DNA of 64,000 nucleotides from Bacillota bacterium (GCA_021850485.1 JAJZLY010000025.1:124001-188000), one strand, 5' to 3'. Shown: positions 36,203 to 62,821, counted from the stretch's first letter. The notes: generated by a model from the sequence alone, not told the origin. A program made the numbers and translations.

Positions 36203-36278
36203 GGGGGCGTAGCTCAGTCGGGAGAGCGATTGGTTCGCAATCAATAGGTCGGGGGTTCGATTCCCCCCGCCTCCACCA
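36203..36278 (+). tRNA. tRNA-Ala (anticodon CGC)
   Basis: All arms are visible. The acceptor GGGGGCG (36203-36209) pairs with CGCCTCC (36268-36274) with a G3:U70 wobble, the alanine identity element. The D arm is GCTC/GAGC. The anticodon loop TTCGCAA gives CGC, reading GCG codons. The T arm is GGGGG-TTCGATT-CCCCC. Discriminator A and an encoded CCA complete it. The integrase gene begins its 3' end only 93 bases downstream, so this tRNA is the likely attachment site of the accessory region. Confidence 0.97.
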
Positions 36279-36370: not shown

Positions 36371-37552
36371 TCAGGGTAGCGGCCGCCGGCCAGGTGCACT
36401 CTCCAACAGCTGGTCAAACAGTCCCATCGCCTGTCTCTTGGTCGGTCCTAACACATGGACGTAGGTTCGGGCCGTGAAGGCGGGGCTTTCGTGGCCCAGG
36501 ATCGTCGACAGCGTGGTGATGTCCATGCCTGCAAGGAGGGCGAGGCTGGCGAAGGTGTGCCTGAGAGCATGCACCCCGCCCTGCTTCAGTCCAACCTCTG
36601 CCAAGGCCACGTACCATGCTCGGAGGACGTTCCGTTGCCCCATCCATCCGCCGGCCTCACTGGGGAACACCAGGCCCATCGAGTTCCAGCCCTTACCCCG
36701 CATCTGTGCCTCTACCGCCTGAGTCGCTCTATGGTTTCTCAGGATGGTAGCCGCCTCACCGCTCAGCGGGATCTCCCTGACTCCGCGGGCGGTCTTGGGA
36801 CGGGTTTCCATCTTCCGGCCGCCGACCTCTACGATCTGCCGCGAGACGAAGAGCACTCCCTTGTCGAGATCGAGATCACTCCACCGCAGGGCCACCGCTT
36901 CGCCAATCCTGAGCCCGCTCCGCCACAACACCGCCAGCAAGGGGCCGACCCTGAATCGAGAGTCTGCGACGTCGAGACGGCGAACTTCGTCCAAGGTGTA
37001 CGACGCGATGACTTTGGAACGTGAAACAGGCCCTCGCACCAGATCCACGGGGCTACCAGCCAGGAGTCCGTCCCGAACCGCCTCGTGTAGACATACCCGA
37101 AGGATTGAACGGCAGTAAGAAACGGTCCGGTCGGCCAGCCGCCCACCGCGCGCGCTGGGTTTCGCCGCCAGGGCGGACAACCAGTCCGCTATCTGGGCTC
37201 TCGTCAGTTTGGAGAGCGGTGTGGCCCCGAGCGCCGGCAGAATGTGCAGCCTGGCCATCCTGGCGTAGCTGTCCTTGGTTTTCTCGCTCCACCGTGGAGC
37301 AGTTCGCTTCATCCAGGCGTCCAGATACTCGCCGACGGTGATCGCACCGGGCCGCACAACCCGCATCGGAGACGAGGTGATCTCTGCCTGTCTCCGGGCC
37401 CACTCGATCTCGGCCGATCGCCTGGTACCAACGAACGTGTGACTTTCTCGCGGCCGAGATCCGTCAGCCTGAAGAGGAAGTTGCCAGGTCAGTTTCCAGC
37501 GCGAGCACTTACTGGGCGGCTGCCCTTTGAAGGGCCTTGGGCGGATATTCAT
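36371..37552 (-). CDS. tyrosine-type site-specific integrase
   Basis: This phage/ICE-type integrase of 393 residues has an N-terminal arm-binding region, a SAM-like core-binding domain (V-G-E-Y-L-D-A-W-M to about residue 175) and a catalytic domain. The catalytic Arg is in S-G-L-R-I-G-E-A, Lys in the R-P-K-T-A-R-G-V-R-E-I beta-hairpin, H-x-x-R in H-A-L-R-H-T-F-A-S, the third His in G-H-E-S-P, and nucleophile Tyr in T-Y-V-H-V. All are intact. Its 3' end faces tRNA-Ala(CGC), the standard arrangement for integration into a tRNA 3' end. Confidence 0.93.
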   Translation of the reverse strand: MNIRPRPFKGQPPSKCSRWKLTWQLPLQADGSRPRESHTFVGTRRSAEIEWARRQAEITSSPMRVVRPGAITVGEYLDAWMKRTAPRWSEKTKDSYARMARLHILPALGATPLSKLTRAQIADWLSALAAKPSARGGRLADRTVSYCRSILRVCLHEAVRDGLLAGSPVDLVRGPVSRSKVIASYTLDEVRRLDVADSRFRVGPLLAVLWRSGLRIGEAVALRWSDLDLDKGVLFVSRQIVEVGGRKMETRPKTARGVREIPLSGEAATILRNHRATQAVEAQMRGKGWNSMGLVFPSEAGGWMGQRNVLRAWYVALAEVGLKQGGVHALRHTFASLALLAGMDITTLSTILGHESPAFTARTYVHVLGPTKRQAMGLFDQLLESAPGRRPLP

Positions 37553-42950: not shown

Positions 42951-43835
42951 CTAGGGGTAGTACATGCCGAAAATGTGGCGATAGATCTCGTGCATCTTCG
43001 CAAAGTCACCTTCCGCGGCAGCGGCTTCTGCCCTCAAGCATCTGTCGTATGCAGATCCGACTTTACTGATGGCCGCCGCACGAGAAGTCTCAGTTAGATA
43101 AGCACTGACCTTGCCATCGGTTCCGGCGGGATCACTCAGTTCATATCTAAGCCTATCCCGAGCCTTGTCAAAAAAGTAGCAGGTGTTCTGCCAGTCCGAC
43201 TGCATGTTGAGGTGCGACCACCACGAGGACCCAAAAATCGACCAGGCAAGAACCTCAAGATGGAACGAGCGTAAGGGGCTGTTCGCGGCTTGATTCCATG
43301 CCTTGAGTTGTTTGATGCAAGGCACCAGGCGGCCCTCATGGAGCCCGTTGACCAGGGCTGAGAGTTCGACGTGCTTCTTAGGATTCGTCTCGATCCACTT
43401 GTCACCCCCCGAGTCGCAAATGTCCCAAGTGGGCTCCAAACCGGAGCTGTTCCACCAGGGTCGGCGAAACGCGGGGACCACATCAACAAGAAAGTCGCTG
43501 AAGGAGACAGTTACGGCTTGCCCATTGCGGCTGATGCGTGGCGTCCGCGGATATGTTAGCATCAGTGCCTTCCGCGTGAGTTCCAGTACGGCTCGGGCGT
43601 GGCGGGCCCGGTAGCCATCATCCAGGACGACAACAATGTCTATGTCGGCCTTCGTGAGCGGTGCTATCAAGGTCTGTCGACGATACGACCCAGTCAGAAA
43701 GTCATCAACGACGGTGAGCTGGCTGGCTACAGCTTGTCGGACATTTCGTTGCCTGGTTGCTACCGTTTCATCTTGCAGGTCTGTGAGGTTGAGGTTGTGG
43801 CGCAATTGCTCAAATGCCTGCCTTCGTGTCAGCAT
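42951..43835 (-). CDS. CD-NTase (cGAS/DncV-like nucleotidyltransferase) 1
   Basis: A SMODS-type nucleotidyltransferase expected to make a cyclic nucleotide on phage sensing. The active site reads G49-S50-Y, D64-I-D66 in K-A-D-I-D-I-V-V-V, and D117 in F-L-V-D-V-V-P-A-F. The C-terminal half ends with S-D-P-A-G followed by a K-V-S-A-Y-L helix, as in CD-NTase C-domains. At 294 residues it is compact. ATG 43835 follows GGAG. It lies 66 bases downstream of the second CD-NTase in the same direction. Confidence 0.85.
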   Translation of the reverse strand: MLTRRQAFEQLRHNLNLTDLQDETVATRQRNVRQAVASQLTVVDDFLTGSYRRQTLIAPLTKADIDIVVVLDDGYRARHARAVLELTRKALMLTYPRTPRISRNGQAVTVSFSDFLVDVVPAFRRPWWNSSGLEPTWDICDSGGDKWIETNPKKHVELSALVNGLHEGRLVPCIKQLKAWNQAANSPLRSFHLEVLAWSIFGSSWWSHLNMQSDWQNTCYFFDKARDRLRYELSDPAGTDGKVSAYLTETSRAAAISKVGSAYDRCLRAEAAAAEGDFAKMHEIYRHIFGMYYP

Positions 43836-43901
43836 CCGCTTCCCACTCCGATTACCATAGACTCGGCATCCACCCCTCTAGTGGTGTTGGTGATAGGCAC
43901 A

Positions 43902-44771
43902 CTAAGCTGGAAACTCCTCTCCCAATTCGATACGCCAGAGCCGCTTGGCCTCAGTGTGATTGCCTCGGGCCTCCATGAGTAGGGCCAGTTTCGCACGCGC
44001 CAAGGCTTCACTGAACCTCGACTCCAGGGCCAACCGATCAATCTCGGTAAGGTAGCCGTCGAGATTTCCGGAGTGGCCAGCTGGGTCCGCACACGTGACC
44101 CGCCTGGACGCCGCTTCGAAAAAGCACTTCAGGTTATCCCGATGGTTGGAGTCGACCGCCTTAAACATCTTCGCCACCATAACTTCTAGATGGTATGGCT
44201 CAAAACGGCGGCTGTGAACGACGTTCCACCGCCGAGCCAGTTTGACCAGAGGCGTGAGGTTGGTGCCAACGGATGCATGTCGTGCTGAGTACCATTTGGC
44301 CTGATACTCGGGGTCTGTGGTCATCCAGTTGCCGTCGCCTTTCGGTAAAGCGAATCCGCCATCACGCCACTTAAAGACAGGCGCGATGTCGACATGAGCG
44401 CCGGACGTATAGAACAGCCGAACGGCCTGACCTCTTGCACCGATCTTCTTGATCGATGTCTTGGCGTTCAATGCCATTCGGATCCGTTGAAGGAAGACAT
44501 CGGACTCGGAGCGATATTGTTCAAAGATCCCTTCCCTGTTAACGAATACAGCCATCACGTCGATGTCCTGAACGGGTCGAATGATGGTTCCCCGAGCCGC
44601 AGAGCCAATTAGGATGACTCGACTAAGGGGTAGCGTGCTCGATGCGGGGAAGGCCTTGCGCAAGTTTCTCTCAGTGGCTTGCCGCTTATCAGAAATGTCT
44701 TGTTTCTGCGAATCTGTAGGGCTGATCGCTTCCAGAAACGCCGCGAACGCCTGGGCCGTCGTGAGTGCCAC
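43902..44771 (-). CDS. CD-NTase (cGAS/DncV-like nucleotidyltransferase) 2
   Basis: A second, diverged relative of the same fold: G56-S57-A-A-R-G, D69-I-D71 in V-Q-D-I-D-V-M-A-V-F, and D128 in A-H-V-D-I-A-P-V-F. The C-terminal part has A-D-P-A-G-H-S-G-N-L-D-G-Y-L, matching the D-P-A-G region of the neighbour, so the two are paralogues. GTG 44771 shares one base with the stop of the SLATT gene (TAGTG), implying coupled translation. Which of the two makes the signal, or whether both do, cannot be told from sequence. Confidence 0.85.
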   Translation of the reverse strand: MALTTAQAFAAFLEAISPTDSQKQDISDKRQATERNLRKAFPASSTLPLSRVILIGSAARGTIIRPVQDIDVMAVFVNREGIFEQYRSESDVFLQRIRMALNAKTSIKKIGARGQAVRLFYTSGAHVDIAPVFKWRDGGFALPKGDGNWMTTDPEYQAKWYSARHASVGTNLTPLVKLARRWNVVHSRRFEPYHLEVMVAKMFKAVDSNHRDNLKCFFEAASRRVTCADPAGHSGNLDGYLTEIDRLALESRFSEALARAKLALLMEARGNHTEAKRLWRIELGEEFPA

Positions 44772-45307
44772 TACTGATCGACCCGGAATCGCTGCGACCC
44801 GCCGTCAATTTGCCTCTTTGCCCTTTGCCAAGCGCGGGAAGAGGTGATCTCCGACTCATGGTTGAGCTTCTGAAGCCGCCTGACCAGTTCACTTAGCTGC
44901 TGACGAGCCTCAGTGTCTGATAGAGCAACAAGATCGACATGGAGGAAGATGCGGCTGTCTTGCTGGAGTGCTCGGTACGCGTTGGCGGCAGCGGACGCCT
45001 TTGCTTTTCCATGTCGCGGCCCGATCGACGCGGCAACAGCTCCAACAGCTGCCGCCAGTAATGCGATCCATCCCGCCCAGGTCCTCGACAAGATCGTGGA
45101 AAGGCCGGTGACTCCTGCGACGGCCGCCAGCACTGCCGAGGTAATCCCTAACCACTGCTCCCAGAAACCCCAGTGTTTCGCAAACTCGAATTGACACTCG
45201 GAAGCATATGTTGCCGACTCCTCAACGCGCTCGGCCTCTCGGCGGATCTCGTCCCGGTGCGCCGACAATATTTCTGGAGGTGTCTTCCCCTCTTGGTCGT
45301 CCGCCAT
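44771..45307 (-). CDS. SLATT-domain 2-TM effector
   Basis: SLATT proteins are predicted pore-forming effectors linked to SMODS nucleotidyltransferases. After a charged helical N-region, the conserved F-W-E-Q-W-L-G-I-T-S-A-V-L-A-A segment begins TM1 (about 49-72). TM2 follows at about 77-97, and the post-TM helix has the typical A-Y-R-A-L-Q-Q-D-S-R-I. At 178 residues it is normal. ATG 45307 follows AGGGG at 7 bases. Activation by a nucleotide made by the adjacent CD-NTase is the expected but untested mechanism. Confidence 0.85.
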   Translation of the reverse strand: MADDQEGKTPPEILSAHRDEIRREAERVEESATYASECQFEFAKHWGFWEQWLGITSAVLAAVAGVTGLSTILSRTWAGWIALLAAAVGAVAASIGPRHGKAKASAAANAYRALQQDSRIFLHVDLVALSDTEARQQLSELVRRLQKLNHESEITSSRAWQRAKRQIDGGSQRFRVDQ

Positions 45308-45325: not shown

Positions 45326-46042
45326 TTAGCTGTTGAGAAAGCCACGCACATGAGCTTCCATAGCCGCCGCGAACCGCCGGAATGTTAGCGAGGCGCCCGG
45401 AAACGTGACCTCTGTAGGGTCCGACTTAGTAGCTAATGCCAGGCAGCAGCTGTTGTACTTCCGTTCGAGAATAAGCCGTTCACACAGCACCTCGTATCGT
45501 CTTGCGTAGGAAGCGCCCTTAAAGATTGGATCGACTTGGAAATGCCGCTCCGAGTTTCGGACGGGTGTGTGAACCCTTGGGCAGTCTTCAAACAAGAAGA
45601 CGTAGCCTAGGAAGGGCGCTGGATGCTGTCCGAGCCGGCCTTCCCGAAAAGCTGTCCAAATATCCTCGGCGTTCCCAATCGCCTCTTCGGTTCGGTTGTT
45701 GAAATTATTACCGAAACTCGGACCCACCTGCGACTTCAACTCAACCGCAAGCACAAGCTTACCGTCCACCACCGCGACGAGATCCCACTTCTTCTCTGGA
45801 CGGTAATAGCCTGGCAGCTCCAAGGCGCTCTGGGTGCTCACATGTTTGGAGTTAAGGCCCGCCGCCACCAGAACACTGGTAAGCAAGGTCGCAATGGCAC
45901 CCATATGGGTGCCACCGGTAACAGCTCCGCGAGTACCAGCGTCGGCCTTGCCTGCGCTCATCTGCTTCTGCTGTTGCCGCTGCCGGCCGTGCCAGAAAGC
46001 TTGGACGGCCTCTGAGAACTGCCTGTCGAGGTCGTCTAGCAT
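45326..46042 (-). CDS. PaeR7I/XhoI-type restriction endonuclease
   Basis: The 238-residue protein carries the XhoI/PaeR7I family pattern: G-A-V-T-G-G-T-H-M, then E-L-P-G-Y-Y-R-P-E-K-K-W-D-L-V-A-V. The PD-(D/E)xK core is D87 with E101-L-K103, followed by Q-V-G-P-S-F-G-N-N-F-N-N-R. Family members cut CTCGAG, so that specificity is predicted. Its start overlaps the methyltransferase stop by 7 bases, and the SLATT gene begins 19 bases after its stop, so restriction and CD-NTase genes look like one transcript. Confidence 0.9.
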   Translation of the reverse strand: MLDDLDRQFSEAVQAFWHGRQRQQQKQMSAGKADAGTRGAVTGGTHMGAIATLLTSVLVAAGLNSKHVSTQSALELPGYYRPEKKWDLVAVVDGKLVLAVELKSQVGPSFGNNFNNRTEEAIGNAEDIWTAFREGRLGQHPAPFLGYVFLFEDCPRVHTPVRNSERHFQVDPIFKGASYARRYEVLCERLILERKYNSCCLALATKSDPTEVTFPGASLTFRRFAAAMEAHVRGFLNS

Positions 46043-47781
46043 CCGAACACAGCAGCTCGGTCACCGATTCCATACGCCTCGACGGCAGCACTGGTCGCAG
46101 CCTGGGCATCGCGGGCTTGAAATGCATGGCGCAGCCGTTCGTTCAGCGAGGGGGCGAGAGAGGCGGGATCGGGAACGCGAATCCGTCGGAGGTATTGCGC
46201 CTGAAAACGTAAGGTTCCACCGCGCATTTTCACGCAGTATGCCTCGATGAACAGTTCTGCGACCTTGGATAGAAGTAGTCCGCCAAGTACCTCCAGGTCC
46301 CAAAGGTCGGAGGTCAAGTAGTAGAGGTTGTGGTGAGGGTAGGTCTTTCCAACGTCGAGCGTCGGATTGCTCATGAGCTTCATGTCAGGGAAGTAGAGTT
46401 TGTCTTGTCGGATCAGTCGGTGGTTGACCCGGTCAATCGTCCGGTACCAGTTCTTCGCCTTGTTTCGAACGATGTGCCGCCGCTCTAAAGCGTCACGTCG
46501 CGCCTCCAGATACTGCCGCAACCTTGGGTAGACATCGAGATCGACAAGGTTGCCGTTCGCTTGCCAGGGATTCACAAGGTAGTGGCCCGACCAATTCACC
46601 ACTCCGCCTCGGGTGTCTTCGGACATGGCGAGGGGGAGCAATCGCTCAGGCTCGACCACACTTGCGTCCTGGGTAACATAGACACGGTCGGCTCCCGTTG
46701 CCACCCCGATGCCGACCTTGGTGCCCGTGTACTCATCCTCCAAAGGACGGTACCGCTCCTCCAGATGGCGGAGTAGCTCGAGTCGATGCGACTGGAGCGA
46801 CGGCCAGGGACTGCTGCCCTTAACCCAGTCGGCAACCCTTGTCGCGGAAAAACCTGGCACGTCACCTTGTCCCCGATCGGCCAAATCAATGACACCATCC
46901 GCAAGGTTCCTGCCGCCTGGCGCTGGCCCGGCGGTCGCTCCGCCACTGGCAACGAGGGTACTGCCTTGCGGGGCTCGCCTGATGGTGATTACAGCCGGGT
47001 AGGCTGACACGTTCTCCTCGAAGGCGGGCGCCTCGTGCATCTCGATGACCGCCTCCATGCTGTACCCGGCAGAGATGAGGCGCCGGAGCTCAACACCATA
47101 TGCACTCCTCATCCACCTGTCAGCACAGATGAAACCAAGTGCCCCGCCTTGCCTCAACTGACGGAGCCCCGCTTCAAAGAACCCGATGTAGATGTCGCCT
47201 CTGCCAATCATCGTCGGGAGTACTCGTCGATAGCGAGCGAACACACCAGCTGGGAGATCGTCGTATCGGATATACGGTGGATTGCCAACGACGAAGTCAG
47301 CACTGCGATCCTTCGAAGCGTTCAATAGATAGTCTCCGGTTGTCACCCAACCTTCAGCAACCTCATGCGCCTGACGCGCCGGTGCGCCGTGTTTGAGTAA
47401 CTCCCTCGTCGCTAGATCAACCAGCCGACGCGCTGCGGAAGCATCAATCTCATAGGCATGGAGTGCATGCTCCACGTCGGTCAACTGGTGACCATGGGCC
47501 TCGAGAGAGACAAGGAGCCGCCGGATCATCGGTAGAAGAAATGCCCCTTCTCCAGCCGCTGGCTCCACGGCGTATCGCTCTGCGAGGTCGTGAGACGATC
47601 GGTAGCCAACTAGGTCGAGAATCAGGTCAACGACCCACGGCTTGGTGTACACAACGCCCCTTAGGTCTCTAGCCGGGGCTAGAGCCGCCTGGGACCTGTG
47701 GTTGCCCGGGCCATCTCCGAAGAGATCGCGGTCTGGCTCCGCCAAGGCAATATGGGCCGCTGTCTCCACTGCGCCTATCAC
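46036..47781 (-). CDS. N6-adenine DNA methyltransferase of the PaeR7I-type system
   Basis: The SAM motif V-E-P-A-A-G-E-G-A-F-L lies near residues 72-82 and the catalytic N-P-P-Y at 167-170, the gamma-class order seen in M.PaeR7I and TaqI/Eco57I-type enzymes. A long C-terminal target-recognition region follows (to residue 581), with W-Y-R-T-I-D and Y-L-R-R-I-R segments. It should protect the sites cut by its partner. GTG 47781 or GTG 47769 is the start; the latter has GGGGTGA better spaced. Confidence 0.9.
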   Translation of the reverse strand: MIGAVETAAHIALAEPDRDLFGDGPGNHRSQAALAPARDLRGVVYTKPWVVDLILDLVGYRSSHDLAERYAVEPAAGEGAFLLPMIRRLLVSLEAHGHQLTDVEHALHAYEIDASAARRLVDLATRELLKHGAPARQAHEVAEGWVTTGDYLLNASKDRSADFVVGNPPYIRYDDLPAGVFARYRRVLPTMIGRGDIYIGFFEAGLRQLRQGGALGFICADRWMRSAYGVELRRLISAGYSMEAVIEMHEAPAFEENVSAYPAVITIRRAPQGSTLVASGGATAGPAPGGRNLADGVIDLADRGQGDVPGFSATRVADWVKGSSPWPSLQSHRLELLRHLEERYRPLEDEYTGTKVGIGVATGADRVYVTQDASVVEPERLLPLAMSEDTRGGVVNWSGHYLVNPWQANGNLVDLDVYPRLRQYLEARRDALERRHIVRNKAKNWYRTIDRVNHRLIRQDKLYFPDMKLMSNPTLDVGKTYPHHNLYYLTSDLWDLEVLGGLLLSKVAELFIEAYCVKMRGGTLRFQAQYLRRIRVPDPASLAPSLNERLRHAFQARDAQAATSAAVEAYGIGDRAAVFGC

Positions 47782-51017: not shown

Positions 51018-52531
51018 ATGCGCAAGATGGCCGACATGGAGTTCATTCGCAGGCTGCAGGTTGCAGAAGGGTGGAGCGAGCGCCGGATTGCCAGGGAGTT
51101 CGGCTACGGGCGGAACACGGTCCACAAACTGCTGGACCGCAGCCAGCCGACCACGGCGCCGGTCTATAGGCGCAGCAAGCCGGTGCGGGCTCCCAAGATG
51201 GACCGCTACCGGGAGATCATCGACAGCTGGCTGATCGCGGACCAGGCTGCACCCCGCAAGCAGCGGCACACCGCCCACCGCATCCACGATCGCCTGGTCA
51301 GCGAGTACGACGCCACCGACTTGGCCGAATCCTCCGTCCGCCGCTACGTCCGACAGCGGCGTGAGCTGGTGGCGCCCAAGGCTGCCCCTGCCTTCCTTCA
51401 CCTGGAGTTCGGGCCCGGCCAGGTGGCCCAGGTGGACTGGGGCGAGGCGACGGTGAAGCTGGCGGGGCGCCAGGTGACGGTCTGGATGTTCTGCATGCGC
51501 CTTTGCCACTCGACCAAGCCGTTCGTCGCCGTGTACCCGCACGGTCGCATGGAGTGCTTTCTGGAAGGCCACATCCAGGCGTTCGCCTGGTTCGGGGGCA
51601 TCCCCGCCGAAATTATCTACGACAACCTCGGCTCCGCCGTGCAGCGCGTCCTCAGCCGGCGCGGCCGGCTGCTCAACGCCGCCTTCCAGGCCTTCGTCGC
51701 CCACTACCTGTTCAAGCCGGTGTTCGCCAACCTGGCCGCCGGCTGGGAGAAGGGGCTGGTCGAGGGGTTGGTCGGCACCGCCCGCCGCAACTATCTGGTG
51801 CCCGTCCCGGACGTGTCCTGCCTGCAGGAAGTGAACACCCATCTACGCCATGGCATCGACCGAGACGCCGATCACGTGGTGCCGGAACGCGACGGCCGCT
51901 CGGTGCGCGAACTGTTCGCCGAGGACCGGCAGGGTCTGATCGCCCTTCCCCCAAGCGTCTTTCCCGCTTGCACCCGGCACAGTGGCACGTCTCGCATCAG
52001 TGCACCGTGCGTCATCAGCAGGTGCAGTATTCCGTTCCGGCCCAGCTGGTCGGACGCGACCTCGAACTGCGCGCCTTCAGCGATCACATCGATATCCACG
52101 ACCGGGCCCGGCTGGTGGCCAGCCACCACCTGGGCACGCCCGGCCAGACCCCGGTGCTGGAGCTCGACCACTACCTGGACGTGCTGATGCGCAAGCCGGG
52201 CGGCGTGCGCCACGCCCGGGTGGTGAACCAGCTGGGGGCAGAGGCAACCGCCTACCGCGACGCCTTTCTCAGCCACAACCCGGACGCCTACGGCGGCTTC
52301 GTCCAGATTCTTCTGCTCTGCCGCCGCTACACCCGAGAGGCTGTCCTGGCCGGCATCGCCCAGGCCCGTGCCGAGCGCATCTACGATGTGGCCAGGGTGG
52401 AGGCCCTGATCGCCAAGGCGCTCGGCCAACCCACGGCGGTGATTATGGCTGTGCCCTCTGGCCCGGTCGTCCGCCAGCCCGCACTTGAAGCCTACGACTC
52501 CCTGCTGCCGGCGGCGGGGGTGGTGGCGTGA
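51018..52531 (+). pseudogene. istA: IS21 transposase IstA, frameshifted
   Basis: The first frame (51018 to about 51985) encodes the N-terminal HTH (R-R-I-A-R-E-F-G-Y-G-R-N-T-V-H) and the DDE catalytic domain (V-D-W-G-E-A, then I-I-Y-D-N-L-G and a G-L-V-E-G-L-V segment). Family-like sequence then continues in the -1 frame (H-V-S-H-Q-C-T-V-R-H, then Y-S-V-P-A-Q-L-V-G-R) to 52531. The shift is near 51975-51990. The two pieces together equal a full IstA of about 500 residues. No convincing slippery heptamer in the right phase is seen, so this is a mutation or a sequencing indel. ATG 51027 is a better-spaced start than 51018. Confidence 0.85.
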
Positions 52532-53331
52532 GCACTCGCAAGACAGATCCGATCGCCGTCCAGGACGCCATCCGGGAGACCGCCATCGACGGCCAGCTGC
52601 GTCTGCTCAAGATGCCCGGCGCCCTCCGCCACTACCGCGACCTCACCCGCCAGGCTCGCACCGGCAGCGACGACCCGCTCACCTACCTGCAGTCGGTGCT
52701 AGCCGTGGAGCTGGACAGCCGCCGCCAGAACCAGATCGCCCAGCGCCTGCGCGATGCCCGTTTCCCCTACCCCAAGGATCTCGACGGCTTCGACTTCACG
52801 GCCGCCCCATCGATCAGCCGCCAACAGATCCTCGAACTCGCCGGCGGCCGCTTCGTGGCGGAACGGGAGGGAGTGATCTTCATCGGCCCCAGTGGAACGG
52901 GAAAGAGCCACCTGGCCATCGCCATCGGCCGGGCCGTGATCTACGGCGGCTACCGCAGCCGCTTCACCACGGCGACCCTGTTGATGAACGAGCTGCTGGC
53001 CGCCCAGACCGAGCGCACGTTGATCCGCTACTTCAAGATGTGGTCGCGCTACGACTTGGTGGTGGTGGACGAGATCGGCTACGTGCCGTTCTCCCAGGAC
53101 GGGGCCCGGCTGCTCTTCCAGTTCTTCTCCGAGCTGTGCGAACGGCGCTCATTGTTGCTCACCACCAACTTGGAGTTTTCGCGCTGGGTGGACGTGTTCG
53201 GCGACGCCGGGATGACCGCCGCCCTCTTGGACCGCCTCACCTACCGGGCCCACATCGTGGCCACCGAGGGAGAGAGCTACCGGCTCAGGCAGGCCCAGGC
53301 CCGCAAGGCGGCGGCAGCGGGCCAGCTATGA
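52528..53331 (+). CDS. istB: IS21 helper ATPase IstB
   Basis: IstB is the AAA+ ATPase that aids IstA target capture. The Walker A motif is G-P-S-G-T-G-K-S-H-L and Walker B is L-V-V-V-D-E-I-G-Y-V. Q-D-G-A-R-L-L-F-Q-F and T-T-N-L-E-F-S-R-W are family motifs. GTG 52528 overlaps the istA stop. The gene looks intact at 267 residues. Confidence 0.93.
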   Translation: MSTRKTDPIAVQDAIRETAIDGQLRLLKMPGALRHYRDLTRQARTGSDDPLTYLQSVLAVELDSRRQNQIAQRLRDARFPYPKDLDGFDFTAAPSISRQQILELAGGRFVAEREGVIFIGPSGTGKSHLAIAIGRAVIYGGYRSRFTTATLLMNELLAAQTERTLIRYFKMWSRYDLVVVDEIGYVPFSQDGARLLFQFFSELCERRSLLLTTNLEFSRWVDVFGDAGMTAALLDRLTYRAHIVATEGESYRLRQAQARKAAAAGQL

Positions 53332-53565
53332 TGGCGGGGCACGCCAGGGCGTCTATTGGTATGGGCCTATACCCATCGGCCCACAGAGGGAACCAGTGAC
53401 AGCCGCATGCTGCGCTGGACGGTGCACCTGACGGCCCAGGAGTTCACCCTGCTGGAGGTTGTAGGCAGCCAGTGGCGAGGCCAGAGCCGGGCCGACCTCC
53501 TGATCGATCTGGTCGAGTGGCTGGTCACGGACGACTCCTGGGAGCGGGCCGCCGACCGGCCCGAC

Positions 53566-53866
53566 CCCCTTCACCTGCTTGCCGCCCAGGCTGATCACCG
53601 TGGTGTCTTGCACGGCCAGCACCACCCTTGGCGCCCTGACCCCGCTGCAGGGGGGCCGGGTGGTGGGGGCAACCACCCGCTGGGCCGTCACCTTGTCGTT
53701 GTCCAGAAACCGGTAGGCCGCCTTGGTGTCGCCCCACGACTGCATGGCGAGGGGCAGAGAGCCCTCCGGCTTCTCGGCCAGGGCCGTGGCCATGCGCACC
53801 ACCCGCTGGCCGAAGCGGAGATCGCCGAAAGAGGCGGTGGAGACCTCGCCGTGCCGCCCAGCTCAC
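53566..53866 (-). pseudogene. IS4/Tn5-like transposase, N-terminal remnant
   Basis: About 100 codons match the N-terminal DNA-binding part of Tn5-type IS4 transposases: F-G-D-L-R-F-G-Q-R-V-V-R-M-A, then D-T-K-A-A-Y-R-F-L-D-N-D and V-Q-D-T-T-V-I-S. A stop lies just upstream in frame and no start codon is available. After K-Q-V-K-G the family similarity ends although the frame stays open to 53353. It is a truncated relic next to the IS21 element. Confidence 0.7.
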
Positions 53867-54266: not shown

Positions 54267-54773
54267 GTGGTAGAAGAGTCGCCGACCCGTAAGCTCGGCG
54301 GTTCACGATCTGGCCTGATCGGCCAAGTGGTCGAGGTATGGATTGAGGACCAGCGCTATGGACTGCCACTGGAGCGCGTAGAACAGGTGTTGCCCATGGT
54401 TTGGGTGGCACCGCTACCTAAGGCGCCAGAGATGGTGGTCGGCGTCATCAACCTGCACGGAGCTGTGTTGCCTGTGTTGGATATCCGCAAACGATTCGGC
54501 TTGCCGGAGCGGAGGTGGGGGCTGACCACTCGGTTGGTCGTGGTCCAGTTGGCCCATGCTCGGATTGCCGTGCCGGTCGACGAGGTGGTCGGCGTACGCG
54601 ACCACTTCGTCGACGTACGCCTGCCGGATCCCCTGCCCCAATCTGGAGATGGCTGCATCAGCGGCATCGTGGGCCTTTCCGACGGCCTTTTGTTCTTATG
54701 CGATTTGGAGGCCTTCCTCTCGCTTGACGAGCAACACCAACTCACCGTAGCCCTTGATCGAGGTACGCCATGA
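54267..54773 (+). CDS. CheW-like coupling protein (WspB/WspD-like)
   Basis: A 168-residue CheW-domain protein that links receptors to CheA. Typical segments are V-E-V-W-I-E-D-Q-R-Y-G-L-P-L, V-V-G-V-I-N-L-H-G-A-V-L-P-V-L-D and I-A-V-P-V-D-E-V-V-G-V. GTG 54267 lies 7 bases after GGGGGGAG. It is the first gene of the chemosensory operon and its stop overlaps the cheR start. Confidence 0.9.
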   Translation: MVEESPTRKLGGSRSGLIGQVVEVWIEDQRYGLPLERVEQVLPMVWVAPLPKAPEMVVGVINLHGAVLPVLDIRKRFGLPERRWGLTTRLVVVQLAHARIAVPVDEVVGVRDHFVDVRLPDPLPQSGDGCISGIVGLSDGLLFLCDLEAFLSLDEQHQLTVALDRGTP

Positions 54774-56179
54774 GACTTTCCGACGTTGTGCTGGAAGACG
54801 CCCGGGTGGGGATCGCCGCCGGGCTGGGGCTCGACTTTCGCACCAGCCAGTCATCCAGGCTAGAGCGAGAGTTGAGTGCCTTGTTGCGCACGGAGGGCGT
54901 TCCCGCCGCCGAGGCCACCAGGTATCTGCAAGAGTTGTGGGCGTTGCCGAAGACGAGTCCCAGGTGGGGCAGACTCAGTCGTCACTTGGCGGTGGGCGAG
55001 ACCTACTTCTTTCGCGACCAGGCTTGTTTTGACGCCATCAGGCAGACAGTGCTACCGGAGCTGGTGGCCAAGCGCCGTCGCGGAGCCGCTCCGAAGCGCC
55101 TGCGCATCTGGTGCGCCGGGTGCGCCACTGGGGAGGAGCCTTATTCCTTAGCCATGTTGCTGGACCAGCTGCGGATCGGGACGCCGGAGTTCTTGGTGGA
55201 GATTGTGGCCACCGACGTCAACGACGTGGCGCTGGAAACAGCGCGGCGCGGCGTATACCGGGAGTGGTCGCTGAGAGCGACGCCTGCCGCCATTCGAGAT
55301 CGCTACTTCGAGGAGTCTGGGCTGGGGCGCTATGAACTCTCCCCGGCCATCCGCAGGCGGGTGACCTTCCAGGCGCATAATCTGGCGGATGCGAGTAATC
55401 CCGGTCCTCTCGGAGACGTCGACCTCTTGCTTTGCCGCAACGTCTTGATGTACTTCGTTCCCGAGGTGGCGCAACAGATCATCCGGCGCCTGCAGGACCA
55501 GTTGGCGGCGGACGCCTGGCTGGTCACAGCGCCCTCTGAAGCATCGGCGGAGTCTTACCCGCGGCTGACAGCGGTGAACTTCCCAGGGGCGATCTTGTTT
55601 CGCAAGGGTAAGCCGATCCCCGTCCACGGCCCGTCGGTCGTTGCTCGGCCAGTGTCGGCGCCTGGAACTGAACTGCCGAAGAAGGCGGTTCCGGTGCTCC
55701 CCGTGGTCCGAGCGAGGACACAGACGCCTGTCCCGCACCCGGTCGTCCCGCCGCCGGAAATCAACTCCGCGGCGAAGGTTCGACTTGCCGAGGCGCGGAG
55801 ACTTGCCGACGAGGGCCGCCTTGCCGACGCCCGGGTCGTCTGTGAGCAGGTAGTGGCCGCCGACGTCCTGCTGCCGGATGTGCACATCCTGCTCGGCGTC
55901 ATCCATCAGGAACAAGGCGAGGTCGACGCCGCGAAAAGCGCCTTACGCCGGGCTTTGTATCTGGATCCGGATGCCACGGCGGCGCACTTTCTATTGGGCA
56001 TCCTGCTCACCCAACAGGGCGAGATCGAACGGGCCAGACGCTCGATGGAAACGGCGGTGAGGCTATTGGAGAGATCCCCATCCGATCAGGTGGTGGCCTG
56101 GGCCGACGACCTCACGGCTGGGCGGCTGCTGGAAACCGCAAAGGGCTATCTGGAAGCGGACAGGAGCGTGCGACGATGA
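54770..56179 (+). CDS. CheR methyltransferase with TPR tail (WspC-like)
   Basis: It methylates receptor glutamates using SAM. The all-helical CheR_N covers about residues 1-75. R-H-L-A-V-G-E-T-Y-F-F-R opens the catalytic domain, with W-C-A-G-C-A-T-G-E-E-P-Y-S (114-126) as the SAM site and L-L-C-R-N-V-L-M-Y-F (220-229). After a Pro-rich linker (about 290-330) a TPR region of about 100 residues follows. The CheR-TPR fusion is characteristic of alternative chemosensory systems such as Wsp (WspC). ATG 54770 overlaps cheW (ATGA). Confidence 0.92.
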   Translation: MRLSDVVLEDARVGIAAGLGLDFRTSQSSRLERELSALLRTEGVPAAEATRYLQELWALPKTSPRWGRLSRHLAVGETYFFRDQACFDAIRQTVLPELVAKRRRGAAPKRLRIWCAGCATGEEPYSLAMLLDQLRIGTPEFLVEIVATDVNDVALETARRGVYREWSLRATPAAIRDRYFEESGLGRYELSPAIRRRVTFQAHNLADASNPGPLGDVDLLLCRNVLMYFVPEVAQQIIRRLQDQLAADAWLVTAPSEASAESYPRLTAVNFPGAILFRKGKPIPVHGPSVVARPVSAPGTELPKKAVPVLPVVRARTQTPVPHPVVPPPEINSAAKVRLAEARRLADEGRLADARVVCEQVVAADVLLPDVHILLGVIHQEQGEVDAAKSALRRALYLDPDATAAHFLLGILLTQQGEIERARRSMETAVRLLERSPSDQVVAWADDLTAGRLLETAKGYLEADRSVRR

Positions 56180-56781
56180 CGGAGTCCCCCAAGATGGGTG
56201 CAGCCACCAACACGACGACACGGGGCCAAAGGCGCACTGGGGGTCGGCGCGGACAGCTGCCCTGGCCAGAGGTAGCCAGCGCCTTAAAGGCGCGGGCCAA
56301 GCAGTTGGCACAGCCGCTGGAGCGCACCCAGCCGATGCGCCAGCCGGTCAGCCTGCTGGTCTTCGAGTTGAACGGCGAGCGCTACGGGGTCGACATGAGG
56401 CACGTGGTCGAGGTGTTGCGCCCGAGTGGCGTGACGGCGGTGCCCTGCACTCCCCCTTTTTTGCTGGGGCTCACCAGTTATCGCGGACGAGCCCTGCCTC
56501 TGGTCGACCTCGGCGTCTTGCTGGAGGTGTGGGAGCGAACCAGCGAGTTCGGCGATCAGACAGCAGTCGTGGTTCAGGTGGGGGGCGTGTGGCTTGGCTT
56601 TCCAGTGGACAATGCACCGACGGTGATCCAGGTGGATTCCCACGGCTGGACCGAGAGTGCACCGGCGGGGAGTCAGGGCCAAGCGGGATTCGTCCGCACA
56701 CTGACCGATGTGATGGTCGGCGTGGTGGATCTGGACGCCCTCTGTCGCAGCGGACGGCTGGTGGTGGACGAGGTTTCGTAG
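56176..56781 (+). CDS. second CheW-like coupling protein
   Basis: A 201-residue CheW-domain protein with an N-terminal basic extension of about 50 residues. The core shows L-V-F-E-L-N-G-E-R-Y-G-V-D, then L-T-S-Y-R-G-R-A-L-P-L-V-D-L and L-G-F-P-V-D-N-A. Two CheW proteins flanking a CheR-TPR is the wspB-wspC-wspD pattern. ATG 56176 overlaps the cheR stop and has AGGAG upstream. Confidence 0.9.
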   Translation: MTESPKMGAATNTTTRGQRRTGGRRGQLPWPEVASALKARAKQLAQPLERTQPMRQPVSLLVFELNGERYGVDMRHVVEVLRPSGVTAVPCTPPFLLGLTSYRGRALPLVDLGVLLEVWERTSEFGDQTAVVVQVGGVWLGFPVDNAPTVIQVDSHGWTESAPAGSQGQAGFVRTLTDVMVGVVDLDALCRSGRLVVDEVS

Positions 56782-56799
56782 GTCCAGAGAACTGGGGGA

Positions 56800-58347
56800 A
56801 TGACGGTGAGACGCGGTATTGGGGCACGGATCGCCTGGGGTTACGGCATCGGGGCGCTATTGCTGATTGTGGTGGCGGTGATCGGCATCACGGCGATCAA
56901 TCGGACCACGACGTCGTTTAAGTCCACCATCTCGGATCTGAACGTGCACCTGACGGCGGATCTGACCGTCAAGGGCACCTATGAGGAGACCACCGTCGAC
57001 TACCTGCGCTATCGGTTGACCGCCAACCCGAGTGATCTGACCACTTACCAGCAAGAGGATGCTCGAACCCAACAGGAACTGTTGGCCTTAGCCAAAGAGG
57101 CCCCGGTCTGGGAACAGGCAGTCACGTTATTTGCCTCCTGGAACACAGGAGCTCAGGCGTCCTTGGCCGCCGCCAGGGCCGGTCAGGCGGCGACCGCCAA
57201 TCAGATCTACCAAAGCCAGGTCGTTCCCGTGCACAGCGCATTGCTGGCCTTCATCGATCAGCGGGTGGCCCAGCGCGAGGCGATCGTCGCAGCGCAAGAG
57301 CGGGCCGCTGCCGCCACCGCCGGACAGGCGCTTTGGATCCTGGCCCTGGCCAGTGGGGTCGCCCTGCTGTGCCTGATTCTGGCGGCCTGGATTCTCATCC
57401 GCTCCATCTCCTCCAGCTTGCGGTCGGCGATCACCACCTTGGGTAGCGCCGCAGCCGAACTACTGGCCGCCAGCAGCCAACAGGCGGCAGGAACAGCCGA
57501 GGAAGCGGCGGCGGTGCAACAGACCACCACCACCATCGAAGAACTGAAACAGACCGTCCAGGTCGCAGCGCACAAGGCTGAAGCGGTGGTGGAGGCGGCG
57601 CAGAAGACTGTCCAGGTGTCGGAGAGTGGACGCCAGGCGGTGGCGGACACCGTCTTGCGCATGCAGGAGGTGCGCAAGCAGATGCAGAGTCTGGCCGAGC
57701 GCACCGTGGCACTGAGTGAGCAGAGCCAAGCCATTGGCGGTATCACCACTACCGTCAGTGACCTCGCCGAGCAGTCGAACCTACTGGCCGTGAATGCGGC
57801 CATTGAGGCGGCCAAAGCGGGAGAGGCTGGCCGCGGATTCGGCGTGGTGGCAGCGGAAGTGCGCAGCCTCGCCACCCAGTCCAAGCAGGCCACAGAGCAG
57901 GTGCGCGCCATCCTGACCGAAATCCAGCGAGCCACTCAGGCCGCGGTGATGGCGGTGGAACAGGGCGTCAAGTCGGTAGAGGCTGGGGAATCTGTGGCCG
58001 TCCTTGGCGGCGAGGCCATCTCGCAGCTGACCGAGAGCATCGATACCTCCACCCAGATGGCACACCAGATTCTGGCTTCGTCTCAGCAGCAGGTGGTGGG
58101 TGTCGATCAGATCAGTATGGCGATGGAGAACATCAATCAGTCGTCGGTCCAAAATATGGCCTCGACCCGTCAAGTCGAGCAGGCCGCACAGAATCTGAAC
58201 GACCTGGCCGGGTCGCTCAGCGACCTTTTGGAGGGACCGGGGCAGCGCTCTCCTGGTGCGACCGACCGTGGGCCCTCAGCGGCGGCGCATAGGTCGGCGC
58301 GAGGACCGCGGCGATCGCAAGGAGGCGACGATGAACCAGGACGATGA
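56800..58347 (+). CDS. membrane methyl-accepting chemotaxis protein (WspA-like)
   Basis: A 515-residue transducer. TM1 is at about 12-34, a helical extracytoplasmic sensor of four-helix-bundle type at about 35-177, and TM2 at about 178-200. The cytoplasmic signalling domain has the conserved tip L-A-E-Q-S-N-L-L-A-V-N-A-A-I-E-A and A-G-E-A-G-R-G-F-G-V-V-A-A-E-V-R. No clear HAMP domain stands between TM2 and the signalling helices, and there is no C-terminal CheR-tethering pentapeptide. ATG 56800 or GTG 56806 is the start; the second is better spaced from GGGGG. The stop overlaps cheA by 17 bases. Confidence 0.92.
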   Translation: MTVRRGIGARIAWGYGIGALLLIVVAVIGITAINRTTTSFKSTISDLNVHLTADLTVKGTYEETTVDYLRYRLTANPSDLTTYQQEDARTQQELLALAKEAPVWEQAVTLFASWNTGAQASLAAARAGQAATANQIYQSQVVPVHSALLAFIDQRVAQREAIVAAQERAAAATAGQALWILALASGVALLCLILAAWILIRSISSSLRSAITTLGSAAAELLAASSQQAAGTAEEAAAVQQTTTTIEELKQTVQVAAHKAEAVVEAAQKTVQVSESGRQAVADTVLRMQEVRKQMQSLAERTVALSEQSQAIGGITTTVSDLAEQSNLLAVNAAIEAAKAGEAGRGFGVVAAEVRSLATQSKQATEQVRAILTEIQRATQAAVMAVEQGVKSVEAGESVAVLGGEAISQLTESIDTSTQMAHQILASSQQQVVGVDQISMAMENINQSSVQNMASTRQVEQAAQNLNDLAGSLSDLLEGPGQRSPGATDRGPSAAAHRSARGPRRSQGGDDEPGR

Positions 58348-60463
58348 GCTCCGACAGCGCCTGGAAGTCATCTTCCGGATGGAGGCCCAAGATCACCTGC
58401 AGGCGATGGTCACCCATCTTTTGTCACTGCAGCGTGATTTGGGGGCCGATGAACAAAAGGAGCACGTCGAAGGGTTGTTTCGCGCTGTTCACACTCTGAA
58501 GGGGGCTGCCCGATCGGTCGGGTTGGAACAGATCGAGGGCCTGTGCCAAGCGGCAGAAAGTGTGATGAGCCGCCTGGTGCAGGGGGTGACGGCCGTGACG
58601 CCCGCTCTGGTCGACTTGCTCCAAGACACCGTGGCCGAGATTACCCGGGCCGTCGCCGGCGATCACGATGCAGGGCGTGGCCAAGCGCTGATTGGCCGCC
58701 TGGAGGCGACCGCAACCATATCCGGGCAGATGCCTGATCCCTCGCAAATGGTTACCGCTCAACCGCGCCGGTCACCGGGTGCCACGGTGGGGGCTCCCGC
58801 TGATGGCAGCATTCGTGTCTCCACCGCCCTCCTTGATTCGCTGATTTTCCGAGCCCAGGATCTGACCGTGGCCAAGCTGGCCGCCGCGGCGCAGGTGCCA
58901 AGGTTGGCGGCACTGGTCGCTTCCATCGCGGCCCTGCATGGAAGTACATCTGCGGAGTCTGACCTGAGTGCCCTGGAGACCCGGTCCCGCACCATGCTGG
59001 GCCATCTCCAGCAAGATGCCACCGCCCTTGGCCGGGCGGTCGATGCGCTGCAGCGAGAGATCCGGCACATTCGGATGGCGCCCGCCTCCACAGTCGTGGA
59101 TCTATTCCCGCTGATGGTGCGCGACCTAGAGCGGGAGAACGGCAAACAGGTGGAATGGTCGACCAACGGCACGGAGCTGGCACTGGACCGAAAAGTGCTG
59201 GAGACGATTAAGGATCCGCTGATCCATCTGGTGCGAAACGCCGTGGATCACGGCATCGAGTCACCGGCAGTACGACTGGCTGCCGGCAAACCAGCCCGCG
59301 GACAATTGACCCTCTCCTTGACCCCGCGCGAGGGGGAGCAGATCGAGATCCGCCTCGCCGACGATGGAGGCGGGCTGGACCTGCAAGAGATCCGGGCCAC
59401 CGCCGTGCGCGCCCGGTTGCTGACCACGGAGGAAGCCCAGGCCCTGGATGATGAGCAGGCCCAGGAGTTGGTGTTTCGATCTGGCTTCAGCACCAGTCCG
59501 ATCATCACGCGCGTCTCCGGCCGTGGCCTCGGCATGGCCATCGTTCGGGAACGGGTGGAGAGCCTCGGTGGGTCGGTACGCCTGAAGAGCGAACCAAAGC
59601 GGGGGACGACCGTGACCCTGGTGGTGCCGAGCACCATCACCACCTTCCGTGGTCTAATGGTGCGCGAGCGCACTCAGCGCCTTCTGATCGCCCTCGACGC
59701 AGTCGAACGGGTCATGCAGATCGCACCAGAGCAGATCCAGCACCTCGAGGGTCGGCCGACGGTACTCGTTGAGCAGGTTGCGGTCCCCTGCCTGCGCTTG
59801 GGTGATGCCCTCGGCCTAGAGGAGACGACGGCTCGGCAGCCAGCCGCTGATGCCGCTCTCCCGTGCGTGGTTGTCCAGAGCGGCGACCAGCGAGTGGCGC
59901 TCTTGGTGGACGCCGTCGACGGGGACTGCGAGGCCGTGATCAAAGAACTCGAGAGCCCGTTGGTACATGTCCGAAACGTGGCAGGGGCAGCGCTGTTGGC
60001 CAGCGGCGAGATCATGGTCATCTTGCGCGTGTCTGACCTGGCTCAGTACGCTCAGGGCTACCGGCGCCCGCCGGCCGCCGAGCCCGATTCGACACGTCGG
60101 CGGGCCACCATCTTGGTGGTGGACGACTCGATCACGACCCGTACGGTCGAAAAGAACATCCTGGAGGTTGCCGGATTCAACGTGTCGGTGGCGGCCGATG
60201 GAATTGAGGCCTGGGAGATGCTCGGCCACCAGACCTTTGATCTGGTGGTGTCTGACGTGGACATGCCGCGGATGGACGGGTTTGAACTGACCGAGCGGAT
60301 CCGTGCCCATCCGCCACTGAAGGACCTGCCGATCGTCCTGGTCACCGCTCTGGAGTCACGGGGCGATAAAGAGCGAGGCGTCCGCTTGGGTGCGAACGCC
60401 TATCTGTTCAAATCCAGCTTTGCCGAATCCAACCTGCTTGAGATCGTGAGTAGGCTGATCTGA
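58331..60463 (+). CDS. hybrid chemotaxis kinase CheA with C-terminal receiver (WspE-like)
   Basis: Domains in order: Hpt (H54 in A-V-H-T-L-K-G-A-A-R), linker, HATPase (L-V-R-N-A-V-D-H-G-I-E; D-D-G-G-G-L; G-R-G-L-G-M-A), a CheW-like domain, then a full receiver (I-L-V-V-D-D-S-I-T-T-R; phosphoacceptor in V-V-S-D-V-D-M-P-R). At 710 residues it is a CheA-CheY fusion, the WspE architecture. ATG 58331 has GGAGG 5 bases upstream; the longer frame runs inside the receptor gene. It should phosphorylate CheB and the REC-EAL protein downstream. Confidence 0.94.
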   Translation: MNQDDELRQRLEVIFRMEAQDHLQAMVTHLLSLQRDLGADEQKEHVEGLFRAVHTLKGAARSVGLEQIEGLCQAAESVMSRLVQGVTAVTPALVDLLQDTVAEITRAVAGDHDAGRGQALIGRLEATATISGQMPDPSQMVTAQPRRSPGATVGAPADGSIRVSTALLDSLIFRAQDLTVAKLAAAAQVPRLAALVASIAALHGSTSAESDLSALETRSRTMLGHLQQDATALGRAVDALQREIRHIRMAPASTVVDLFPLMVRDLERENGKQVEWSTNGTELALDRKVLETIKDPLIHLVRNAVDHGIESPAVRLAAGKPARGQLTLSLTPREGEQIEIRLADDGGGLDLQEIRATAVRARLLTTEEAQALDDEQAQELVFRSGFSTSPIITRVSGRGLGMAIVRERVESLGGSVRLKSEPKRGTTVTLVVPSTITTFRGLMVRERTQRLLIALDAVERVMQIAPEQIQHLEGRPTVLVEQVAVPCLRLGDALGLEETTARQPAADAALPCVVVQSGDQRVALLVDAVDGDCEAVIKELESPLVHVRNVAGAALLASGEIMVILRVSDLAQYAQGYRRPPAAEPDSTRRRATILVVDDSITTRTVEKNILEVAGFNVSVAADGIEAWEMLGHQTFDLVVSDVDMPRMDGFELTERIRAHPPLKDLPIVLVTALESRGDKERGVRLGANAYLFKSSFAESNLLEIVSRLI

Positions 60464-60483
60464 CCGACATGGGGGCAGTACGC

Positions 60484-61518
60484 ATGTTCAGAGTCCTGGT
60501 CGTCGAGGATTCGCCGGTTGCGCGGGAGCTGATTACGCATCTGCTCACCCGTGACCCGCAGATCACGGTGACTGCGGTCGCTGGCGACGGCGTGGAAGCC
60601 GTCCGCCTGACCCAGGAGCTGCAACCCGATGTGATCCTGATGGACGTGCACATGCCGCGCATGAACGGGCTGGAAGCCACCAGGGAGATCATGCGCACCA
60701 CTCCGACCCCGATCGTGGTGATGAGCGCTACGTCAGTTGGCACCGAGGCGGCGATGGTTTTCGAGGCGACCCAGGCCGGGGCCTTGACCTTCGTCCAAAA
60801 GCCAGGTGCCGCCGCATCTGACCAAGACGGTGCCCACCGCTTGGTGGAGATGGTCAAGGCGATGGCGGAGGTCAAGGTCATCGGCCGCCGGCATCAGCGG
60901 TCAGGGCCACCTCGGGAAGTCGTCGCGCCGGCGACACGGCCGAGTCAGGCAGTGCGGGTGATCGCCATCGGCGCCTCCACAGGCGGGCCACCTGCCCTGA
61001 TGGCGATTTTAAAGGCCCTTCCCCGCAACTTCGCACTGCCGGTGGTGATGGTGCAGCACATCACGCCTGGCTTCACCGAGGGACTGGCGACGTGGTTGGC
61101 GTCAGCCAGTTCATTCGATGTCCAGGTGGCGAGAGACGGGGAAGTGTTGCAAGGCGGCCGCGCCTATCTGCCGCCCGACGGCGTGCAGGTGGTGGTGGCT
61201 GCGGGAAACCGCATCCAATTGGTCCCACGGCTTCCCGAACAGACCTTTTGCCCGTCGATCGATCGCCTATTTAAATCGGTGGCCGAGGTGTTCGGGCCAG
61301 CGGCCCTCGGCATCATCCTGACCGGGATGGGCCGGGACGGCGCGGAGGGGTTGCGCCGGATGCGGGAATCCGGCGGTCTGACCATCGCTCAGGACGAGGC
61401 CAGCAGTGCTGTCTTCGGGATGCCGAAGGAAGCTGCCCGGCTGAAGGCCGCGATCTATGTGTTGCCGCTGACCAAGATTCCTGGCCTGATCGTCGAAAAC
61501 GTGGCTAGGGGGGTTTGA
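60484..61518 (+). CDS. protein-glutamate methylesterase CheB (WspF-like)
   Basis: Residues 1-120 are a receiver with D54 in I-L-M-D-V-H-M-P. The C-terminal esterase has S165 in I-G-A-S-T-G-G-P-P, H192 in V-Q-H-I-T-P-G and D285 in G-M-G-R-D-G-A, the catalytic triad. It removes methyl groups added by CheR and provides adaptation. ATG 60484, 8 bases after GGGGG, is preferred over ATG 60469. Confidence 0.94.
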   Translation: MFRVLVVEDSPVARELITHLLTRDPQITVTAVAGDGVEAVRLTQELQPDVILMDVHMPRMNGLEATREIMRTTPTPIVVMSATSVGTEAAMVFEATQAGALTFVQKPGAAASDQDGAHRLVEMVKAMAEVKVIGRRHQRSGPPREVVAPATRPSQAVRVIAIGASTGGPPALMAILKALPRNFALPVVMVQHITPGFTEGLATWLASASSFDVQVARDGEVLQGGRAYLPPDGVQVVVAAGNRIQLVPRLPEQTFCPSIDRLFKSVAEVFGPAALGIILTGMGRDGAEGLRRMRESGGLTIAQDEASSAVFGMPKEAARLKAAIYVLPLTKIPGLIVENVARGV

Positions 61519-61519
61519 A

Positions 61520-62821
61520 GTGGAAAGCGCAGCCTACTCAGTTTTGGTGCTGGAAGACAGCCCCACCCAGGCGGAACGCCTGCGCCAACTGCTGACTGGA
61601 GAGGGCTACCAGGTCACGGTGGCGGAAAACGGTCAGCGGGGACTCGAATTGGCGCATGCCTCGCTGCCCGATCTGGTGATCAGTGACGTGCTGATGCCGG
61701 AGTTGGACGGCTTCTCGTTCTGCCGGGCGATGAAGGCCGACGAGGCCACGCGCCATGTTCCCCTGGTCCTTCTGACCACCGAGAATTCCCCGCTGGACGT
61801 GATTGTTGGCCTGGAGCGGGGCGCCGCCAACTTCATCACCAAACCCTACGAGCCAGCGTATCTGTTGCAGACGATCGCCCGCATCTTGCACAACGTGGCC
61901 GGGCAGAAGGAGGGCTCACTGGCGGCGGACAGCATTTTGCACATCGGTGAGCGTGAGGTTTCCGTGCCCACCGACCGCCAACAGATCATCGAGCTGTTGG
62001 TCTCATTGACCGTCGGCACCGACGCCAGCCGAAAGGTGGAAAGCCAGATCCTGACCGACAGCTACAACCAGCAAATCGGCCAACTGGACGCCATCAGGAG
62101 CGCCTTGGACAACGAGCAGTTCGTCCACTATTATCAGCCGATCCTCGACCTCAGACGAGGCGTCATCGTGCAAGATGAGCTGCTGTTGCGGATGGTCAAC
62201 GAGACCGGCCAGATCATTCCGCCCGACCAATTTTTGCCGCTGGCGGAATCGTCCGGCCTGATCAGCCGCATCGACATCAGCGTGCTGCAGTGGGCGATCA
62301 AGGTCCTCCGCCAGCACCACGAGGAGGGCCATCCGCTGCGCTTGTCGATCAACATCTCCGGGCAATCGCTGCTGCGGCCCAGCGTCGTCGAGCGGGTGAA
62401 CGACCTAATGGCTCTGATGAAGGTCGATCCCTCATATTTGATGCTGGAGATCACCGAGACGTCGGTCATTTCGGATATGACCCAGGCCAACCGGGCGATC
62501 GAGGCGTTGCAGAATCGAGGGTGTCAATTTGCACTGGACGACTTCGGGGTCGGCTTTTCGTCACTCGACTACCTCAAGCGGCTACCAGTGGACATCGTCA
62601 AGATTGATGGCAGCTTCGTGCGCAACCTTGTCGATAAGCCGACAGACCAGCGGCTGGTGCAGGCCATGACTGAGATGGCGCACGATCTGGGCAAGCGGGT
62701 GGTGGCCGAGTTTGTCGGCGATCAGGCGACGTTGGATCTGCTGGCAGGGTACGGAGTCGACTTTGGCCAGGGGTATTTGATCGGACGGCCAGGGCCGGAC
62801 CCCCATCCCCCGACAGCCTGA
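61520..62821 (+). CDS. response regulator with EAL c-di-GMP phosphodiesterase output
   Basis: An N-terminal receiver has D56 in V-I-S-D-V-L-M-P. A linker (about 125-195) leads to an EAL domain. Catalytic residues are present: E220 in the D-E-L-L-L-R variant of E-x-L, N278, E310 in L-E-I-T-E-T, D340-D341 in L-D-D-F-G-V-G, K361 in V-K-I-D, E397 and Q417 in F-G-Q-G. Phosphorylation by the CheA hybrid should switch c-di-GMP hydrolysis. In the Wsp system this place is held by WspR, a REC-GGDEF cyclase, so the output sign is reversed here. GTG 61520 follows GGGGGG at 6 bases, one base after the cheB stop. Confidence 0.93.
   Translation: MESAAYSVLVLEDSPTQAERLRQLLTGEGYQVTVAENGQRGLELAHASLPDLVISDVLMPELDGFSFCRAMKADEATRHVPLVLLTTENSPLDVIVGLERGAANFITKPYEPAYLLQTIARILHNVAGQKEGSLAADSILHIGEREVSVPTDRQQIIELLVSLTVGTDASRKVESQILTDSYNQQIGQLDAIRSALDNEQFVHYYQPILDLRRGVIVQDELLLRMVNETGQIIPPDQFLPLAESSGLISRIDISVLQWAIKVLRQHHEEGHPLRLSINISGQSLLRPSVVERVNDLMALMKVDPSYLMLEITETSVISDMTQANRAIEALQNRGCQFALDDFGVGFSSLDYLKRLPVDIVKIDGSFVRNLVDKPTDQRLVQAMTEMAHDLGKRVVAEFVGDQATLDLLAGYGVDFGQGYLIGRPGPDPHPPTA

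Follow-up and report, generated by a model that had tools for sequence, protein, structure and literature searches.

An element-borne chemosensory operon of a Bacillota bacterium with a predicted c-di-GMP phosphodiesterase as output

Seven genes on one strand occupy positions 54267-62821 of the window, by which we mean the whole 64,000-nucleotide stretch of Bacillota DNA that was analysed. An initial annotation had proposed this gene set, from cheW to a REC-effector, and all seven genes were recovered at that place and on that strand with significant Pfam domains:

54267..54773, + strand: first CheW-like adaptor (168 aa; PF01584, 3.8e-25; 57% identity to the copy in the related genome G095)
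54770..56179, + strand: CheR methyltransferase with C-terminal TPR (469 aa; PF01739, 2.7e-49; TPR_2, 2.4e-12)
56176..56781, + strand: second CheW-like adaptor (201 aa; PF01584, 6.2e-25)
56800..58347, + strand: membrane chemoreceptor, mcp (515 aa; PF00015 (MCPsignal), 4.6e-33)
58331..60463, + strand: hybrid CheA (Pfam: Hpt, HATPase_c, CheW and Response_reg)
60469..61518, + strand: CheB, receiver and methylesterase (PF01339 (CheB_methylest), 2.8e-60; Response_reg; NCBIfam PRK12555 above cut-off)
61520..62821, + strand: REC-EAL output regulator, predicted c-di-GMP phosphodiesterase (PF00563, 5.8e-71; PF00072, 1.6e-24)

Neighbouring genes overlap (cheR overlaps the first cheW by 4 bases, and the second cheW overlaps cheR by 4 bases) or sit 1-18 bases apart, and this tight packing makes a single transcript likely. 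Two earlier start assignments were corrected: the likeliest start of cheA is the ATG at 58331, which gives a 17-base overlap with mcp, and cheB begins at either 60484 or 60469. CheA comprises one Hpt domain, the kinase, a CheW domain and a C-terminal receiver, while the Pfam scan detected no P2 domain.

The last gene had been described as encoding all phosphodiesterase residues and no GGDEF domain. The Pfam scan indeed found no GGDEF domain, and alignment to annotated RocR places the EAL residues Q206, E220, R224, N278 and E310 on RocR Q161, E175, R179, N233 and E265, and D340, D341, K361, E397 and Q417 on RocR D295, D296, K316, E352 and Q372; the equivalent of RocR E268 is also kept. The catalytic set is E220/N278/E310/D340/D341/K361/E397. 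The description holds for these essential residues but fails for the second glutamate of the ExxE motif (RocR E355), whose position is G400 here and a glycine in all three orthologs (window, G095 and G056). Could the EAL domain then be a c-di-GMP sensor or adaptor that does not hydrolyse its ligand? The glycine would fit such a role, but the metal and catalytic residues are all kept, and in TBD1265 mutation of the equivalent glutamate, E706, was reported to be without effect, E703 being essential (PMC12943098); we regard this reading as improbable. A degenerate EAL domain was rejected, the essential residues being intact. Because these residues match RocR and the lost glutamate is reported to be dispensable, REC-EAL is likely to be an active c-di-GMP phosphodiesterase, as far as its sequence can tell. 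The receiver keeps E12, D13, D56 (the acceptor), T86 and K108, and the essential residues of both domains are conserved across the three orthologs. The AlphaFold model (mean pLDDT 67.9, from three sequences) adds nothing to the residue mapping, its receiver and linker being modelled too weakly. The protein shares its domain order and catalytic residues with RocR and differs from it in a longer REC-EAL linker. RocR also has a different sensor context and is not known to lie in a che operon.

A search for the same operon in other genomes, as the initial annotation had suggested, covered 154 genomes of the class (CheA threshold E<=1e-30). It returned two close relatives of the CheA, each 60% identical, in G095 and G056, which belong to other families. 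Both loci carry, beside cheB, a gene whose product was confirmed by Pfam as Response_reg plus EAL and is 65% (G095) and 64% (G056) identical to the REC-EAL of the window. The G095 order has changed to cheB, REC-EAL, cheW, cheR, cheW, mcp, cheA, so that the cheB/REC-EAL pairing survives rearrangement. Full-length matches to the REC-EAL profile occur in three of the 154 genomes, from three families, and these are the same three that possess this CheA type; the remaining matches cover the EAL domain alone. REC-EAL might be a mere neighbour in the operon, with another regulator or the CheA receiver as the true output. CheA does have its own receiver, other regulators in the genome could be targets, and a related operon of S. 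meliloti has no regulator directly after cheB; nevertheless, REC-EAL accompanies this CheA in three of three cases, always beside cheB despite the changed order, and we judge a chance neighbour to be unlikely. Judged from a small sample of the window and two orthologs, the REC-EAL output is conserved with this CheA lineage. A more distant operon in G039 is flanked by GGDEF, EAL and HD proteins. Viral contigs scanned with a single CheA sequence yielded no match, and the wider genome contigs, searched with the same kind of single-sequence query (an alignment query being preferable), yielded two weak matches and no orthologs. In G095 a CRISPR array (contig C73, L043 26-4000) with some 60 repeats at a 61-base spacing lies upstream of the orthologous operon.

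The receptor consists of a first transmembrane helix (about residues 15-33), a helical sensor with a weak match to 4HB_MCP_1, a second transmembrane helix (TM2, about 182-200) and the MCP signalling domain. It had been said to lack both a HAMP domain and a CheR-tethering peptide, and both statements are borne out. Pfam found no HAMP in the receptors of the window, G095, G039 and G467, and found one in each of the eight remaining receptors scanned, whether Wsp or non-Wsp. The distance from TM2 to the tip is 139 residues in the window and 139-144 across five Bacillota receptors, versus 183-204 in most other, HAMP-bearing receptors (268 in Deinococcus, which has a longer insert), and the difference of about 50 residues points to deletion of about one HAMP. 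An AlphaFold model of the receptor, with a mean pLDDT of 71.5 and low confidence at the junction, shows TM2 followed by a short break and a single helix spanning residues 204-477. The receptor aligns ungapped to chain 6s18, an aromatic acid chemoreceptor, whereas two gaps of about 14 residues are needed against Tsr, and the signalling sequence is for this reason consistent with a 40H-like hairpin. The protein ends in ...GGDDEPGR, without a CheR-tethering pentapeptide.

The operon had been assigned to the Wsp surface-sensing systems, with which it shares the parts list and a c-di-GMP output. For the trees we took references from plasmid records, namely six Wsp loci, in five of which the wspF-like gene is followed by one encoding REC-GGDEF, and non-Wsp operons. 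In the CheA core tree the window, G095 and G056 are united (100/100), and the six Wsp references cluster on their own (100/100), leaving the window outside. Forcing the window and Wsp together carries a penalty of 28 log units and is rejected (p-AU 0.0027), as is constraining it with the paralogous CheAs of the class (87 log units, p 1.6e-6); the one such paralog that was checked has P2 and no receiver. In the concatenated tree of CheA, CheR and CheB the window joins Niveispirillum (98/97), apart from Wsp. Its grouping with non-flagellar hybrid CheAs in the CheA tree has moderate support (92/88), and the deeper order of that tree is unsure because several branches are long.

A true Wsp system in which WspR had been swapped for REC-EAL would account for the common protein set, the more so as CheR-TPR and a hybrid CheA are common to Wsp loci. 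Besides both trees, however, the receptor gene comes first in the Wsp references L123 and L126-L128 (wspA-B-C-D-E-F-R) and the window reads cheW-cheR-cheW-mcp-cheA-cheB-RR, and HAMP is present in all four Wsp receptors scanned and absent from ours. Such a swap thus appears very improbable, and Wsp membership was rejected on the trees, the gene order, the receptor and the REC-EAL output in place of WspR (REC-GGDEF) or WspH. Wsp makes c-di-GMP, whereas the system in the window is predicted to degrade it. Wsp has been reported to be exclusive to beta- and gammaproteobacteria (PMC8552884).

The gene order instead matches alphaproteobacterial non-Wsp systems. The closest of these is on the Niveispirillum cyanobacteriorum plasmid NZ_CP025613, which has the same cheW-cheR-cheW-mcp-cheA-cheB order and, outside G095 and G056, the nearest CheA, CheR and MCP scores to the window; its receptor, however, has CHASE3 and HAMP, and no REC-EAL was found directly after cheB. 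Operons with the same core, order and hybrid CheA lie on an Azospirillum ramasamyi plasmid, where a response-regulator transcription factor and a hybrid kinase follow, and on Sinorhizobium meliloti pSymA (Che2), where no regulator adjoins cheB and Tad pilus genes lie alongside; both receptors differ from ours in having HAMP.

The broader assignment to an alternative cellular function (ACF), non-flagellar system with a phosphodiesterase-like output is supported. The operon shows CheR-TPR, a CheA with a C-terminal receiver and no P2, and a multidomain response regulator (REC-EAL) within the cluster. The last of these is a described feature of the ACF class (PMC3447774), and CheA receivers occur mostly in the F3, F5, ACF and Tfp classes (PMC10782961). 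Among the CheR-TPR clusters known in 2012, REC outputs were fused to GGDEF in about 20 cases and to EAL in one, and a single Gram-positive member, Heliobacterium modesticaldum, was known (PMC3447774). A REC-EAL output in such clusters is not new in principle; the novelty lies in a conserved Bacillota lineage with this output, in its HAMP-less receptors, and in its carriage on an integrated element by a genome in which no other chemosensory system was found. In P. aeruginosa, phosphorylated CheA promotes c-di-GMP hydrolysis through the phosphodiesterase Pch (PMC3861689), but that system is flagellar and Pch has no receiver.

The host genome is a 1.61 Mb draft in 33 contigs, 97% complete, and the one MCP and the one CheA (at E<=1e-30) found in it are those of the operon. 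No flagellar gene lies near the operon, as the initial annotation had noted, and FlhA/FHIPEP, the flagellar marker searched, was not found anywhere in this genome. A flagellar output is for this reason unlikely, and the earlier expectation that the system favours motility loses ground. Flagellar chemotaxis was rejected as well, given the missing FlhA and the single MCP. The genome encodes 7 GGDEF and 5 EAL domains, which suggests that c-di-GMP is used; PilZ was not found in it. A Tad pilus locus lies on contig C15, and our guess is that Tad pili or adhesion are a better target than flagellar motility. On pSymA, the Che2 operon (L062 11562-18978) adjoins Tad/Flp pilus genes, which hints that pathways of this sort may act on Tad pili.

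The operon is cargo of an element integrated at a tRNA-Ala gene, whose ends lie on two contigs. Its features, in window coordinates except for the last, are:

36203..36278, + strand: tRNA-Ala (CGC), the integration target; attL comprises its last 45 bases (36234-36278)
36371..37552, - strand: tyrosine-type phage integrase of the element (PF00589, 7.5e-21), abutting the tRNA-Ala
42951-45307: CBASS-like set of two SMODS oligonucleotide cyclases, side by side, and a SLATT 2TM effector
45326-47781: XhoI-type restriction enzyme and its DNA methyltransferase
51018-53331: IS21, with istA split between frames
53353-53802: Tnp_DNA_bind transposase fragment, after IS21
L119 17400-19998 (G000:C25:187399-189997): Abi_C, a PDC-M50A/B pair with a ThsB-like TIR, and an MT-A70 methyltransferase, all after the operon

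The 45-base attL repeat recurs exactly at G000:C9:2673-2717, and the C9 sequence to the right of it is collinear with sister genomes. An empty site is seen in G001, where left flank, tRNA and right flank are contiguous. This CheA and this REC-EAL were not found in the two genomes of the same genus. No less than 29.8 kb of the element lies on C25 and a further 2.7 kb on C9, its middle being missing from the draft assembly. Its cargo further includes an ArdC-like protein, and the IS21, which is decayed, lies between integrase and operon. Because this IS21 is single-copy, a contig misjoin there is unlikely, and misassembly at this point was rejected. No relaxase or type IV secretion genes were noticed among the element genes scanned, the middle of the element lying outside the assembly. 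A literature search of incomplete coverage gave no direct precedent for element-borne chemosensory operons. In the sister genome G002 (C62, L117 453-3601) this tRNA-Ala att site occurs twice with about 3 kb in between, probably another small element that uses the same target.

We consider it probable that the operon is an element-borne, self-contained ACF-type pathway that controls c-di-GMP hydrolysis and likely alters attachment, not swimming. The HAMP-less membrane receptor and the two CheW adaptors would control the hybrid kinase CheA, and CheR-TPR and CheB would adapt the receptor. CheA would phosphorylate CheB and the receiver of REC-EAL, and phosphorylated REC-EAL would change its c-di-GMP hydrolysis. 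A stimulus-dependent fall in c-di-GMP is the likely effect and would alter attachment, possibly through the Tad pilus of the host. The phosphotransfer, the direction of control, the stimulus and the target are our inferences from the gene content. The earlier statement that receptor activation lowers c-di-GMP is likewise conjectural, the polarity of the kinase and the effect of phosphorylation on the EAL domain being unreadable from sequence.

The locus shows a chemosensory array and a predicted c-di-GMP phosphodiesterase conserved as a pair in Bacillota, where CheR-TPR pathways had been considered almost absent. With one receptor and one kinase in a small genome, output swapping and HAMP-less signalling become directly testable, and the locus suggests that whole behavioural circuits can be carried by mobile elements. 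It is a long shot that the element-delivered pathway commandeers c-di-GMP and surface attachment of its flagella-less host for the element's own benefit; if it did, the gain could lie in the timing of transfer, or in the exposure of Tad pili to phage together with the adjoining defence genes. A second EAL protein is encoded on the same element (window 40243-41640), beside an HTH_36 protein, and a further EAL protein, at G000:C7:2569-3213, matches the profile in a similar way.
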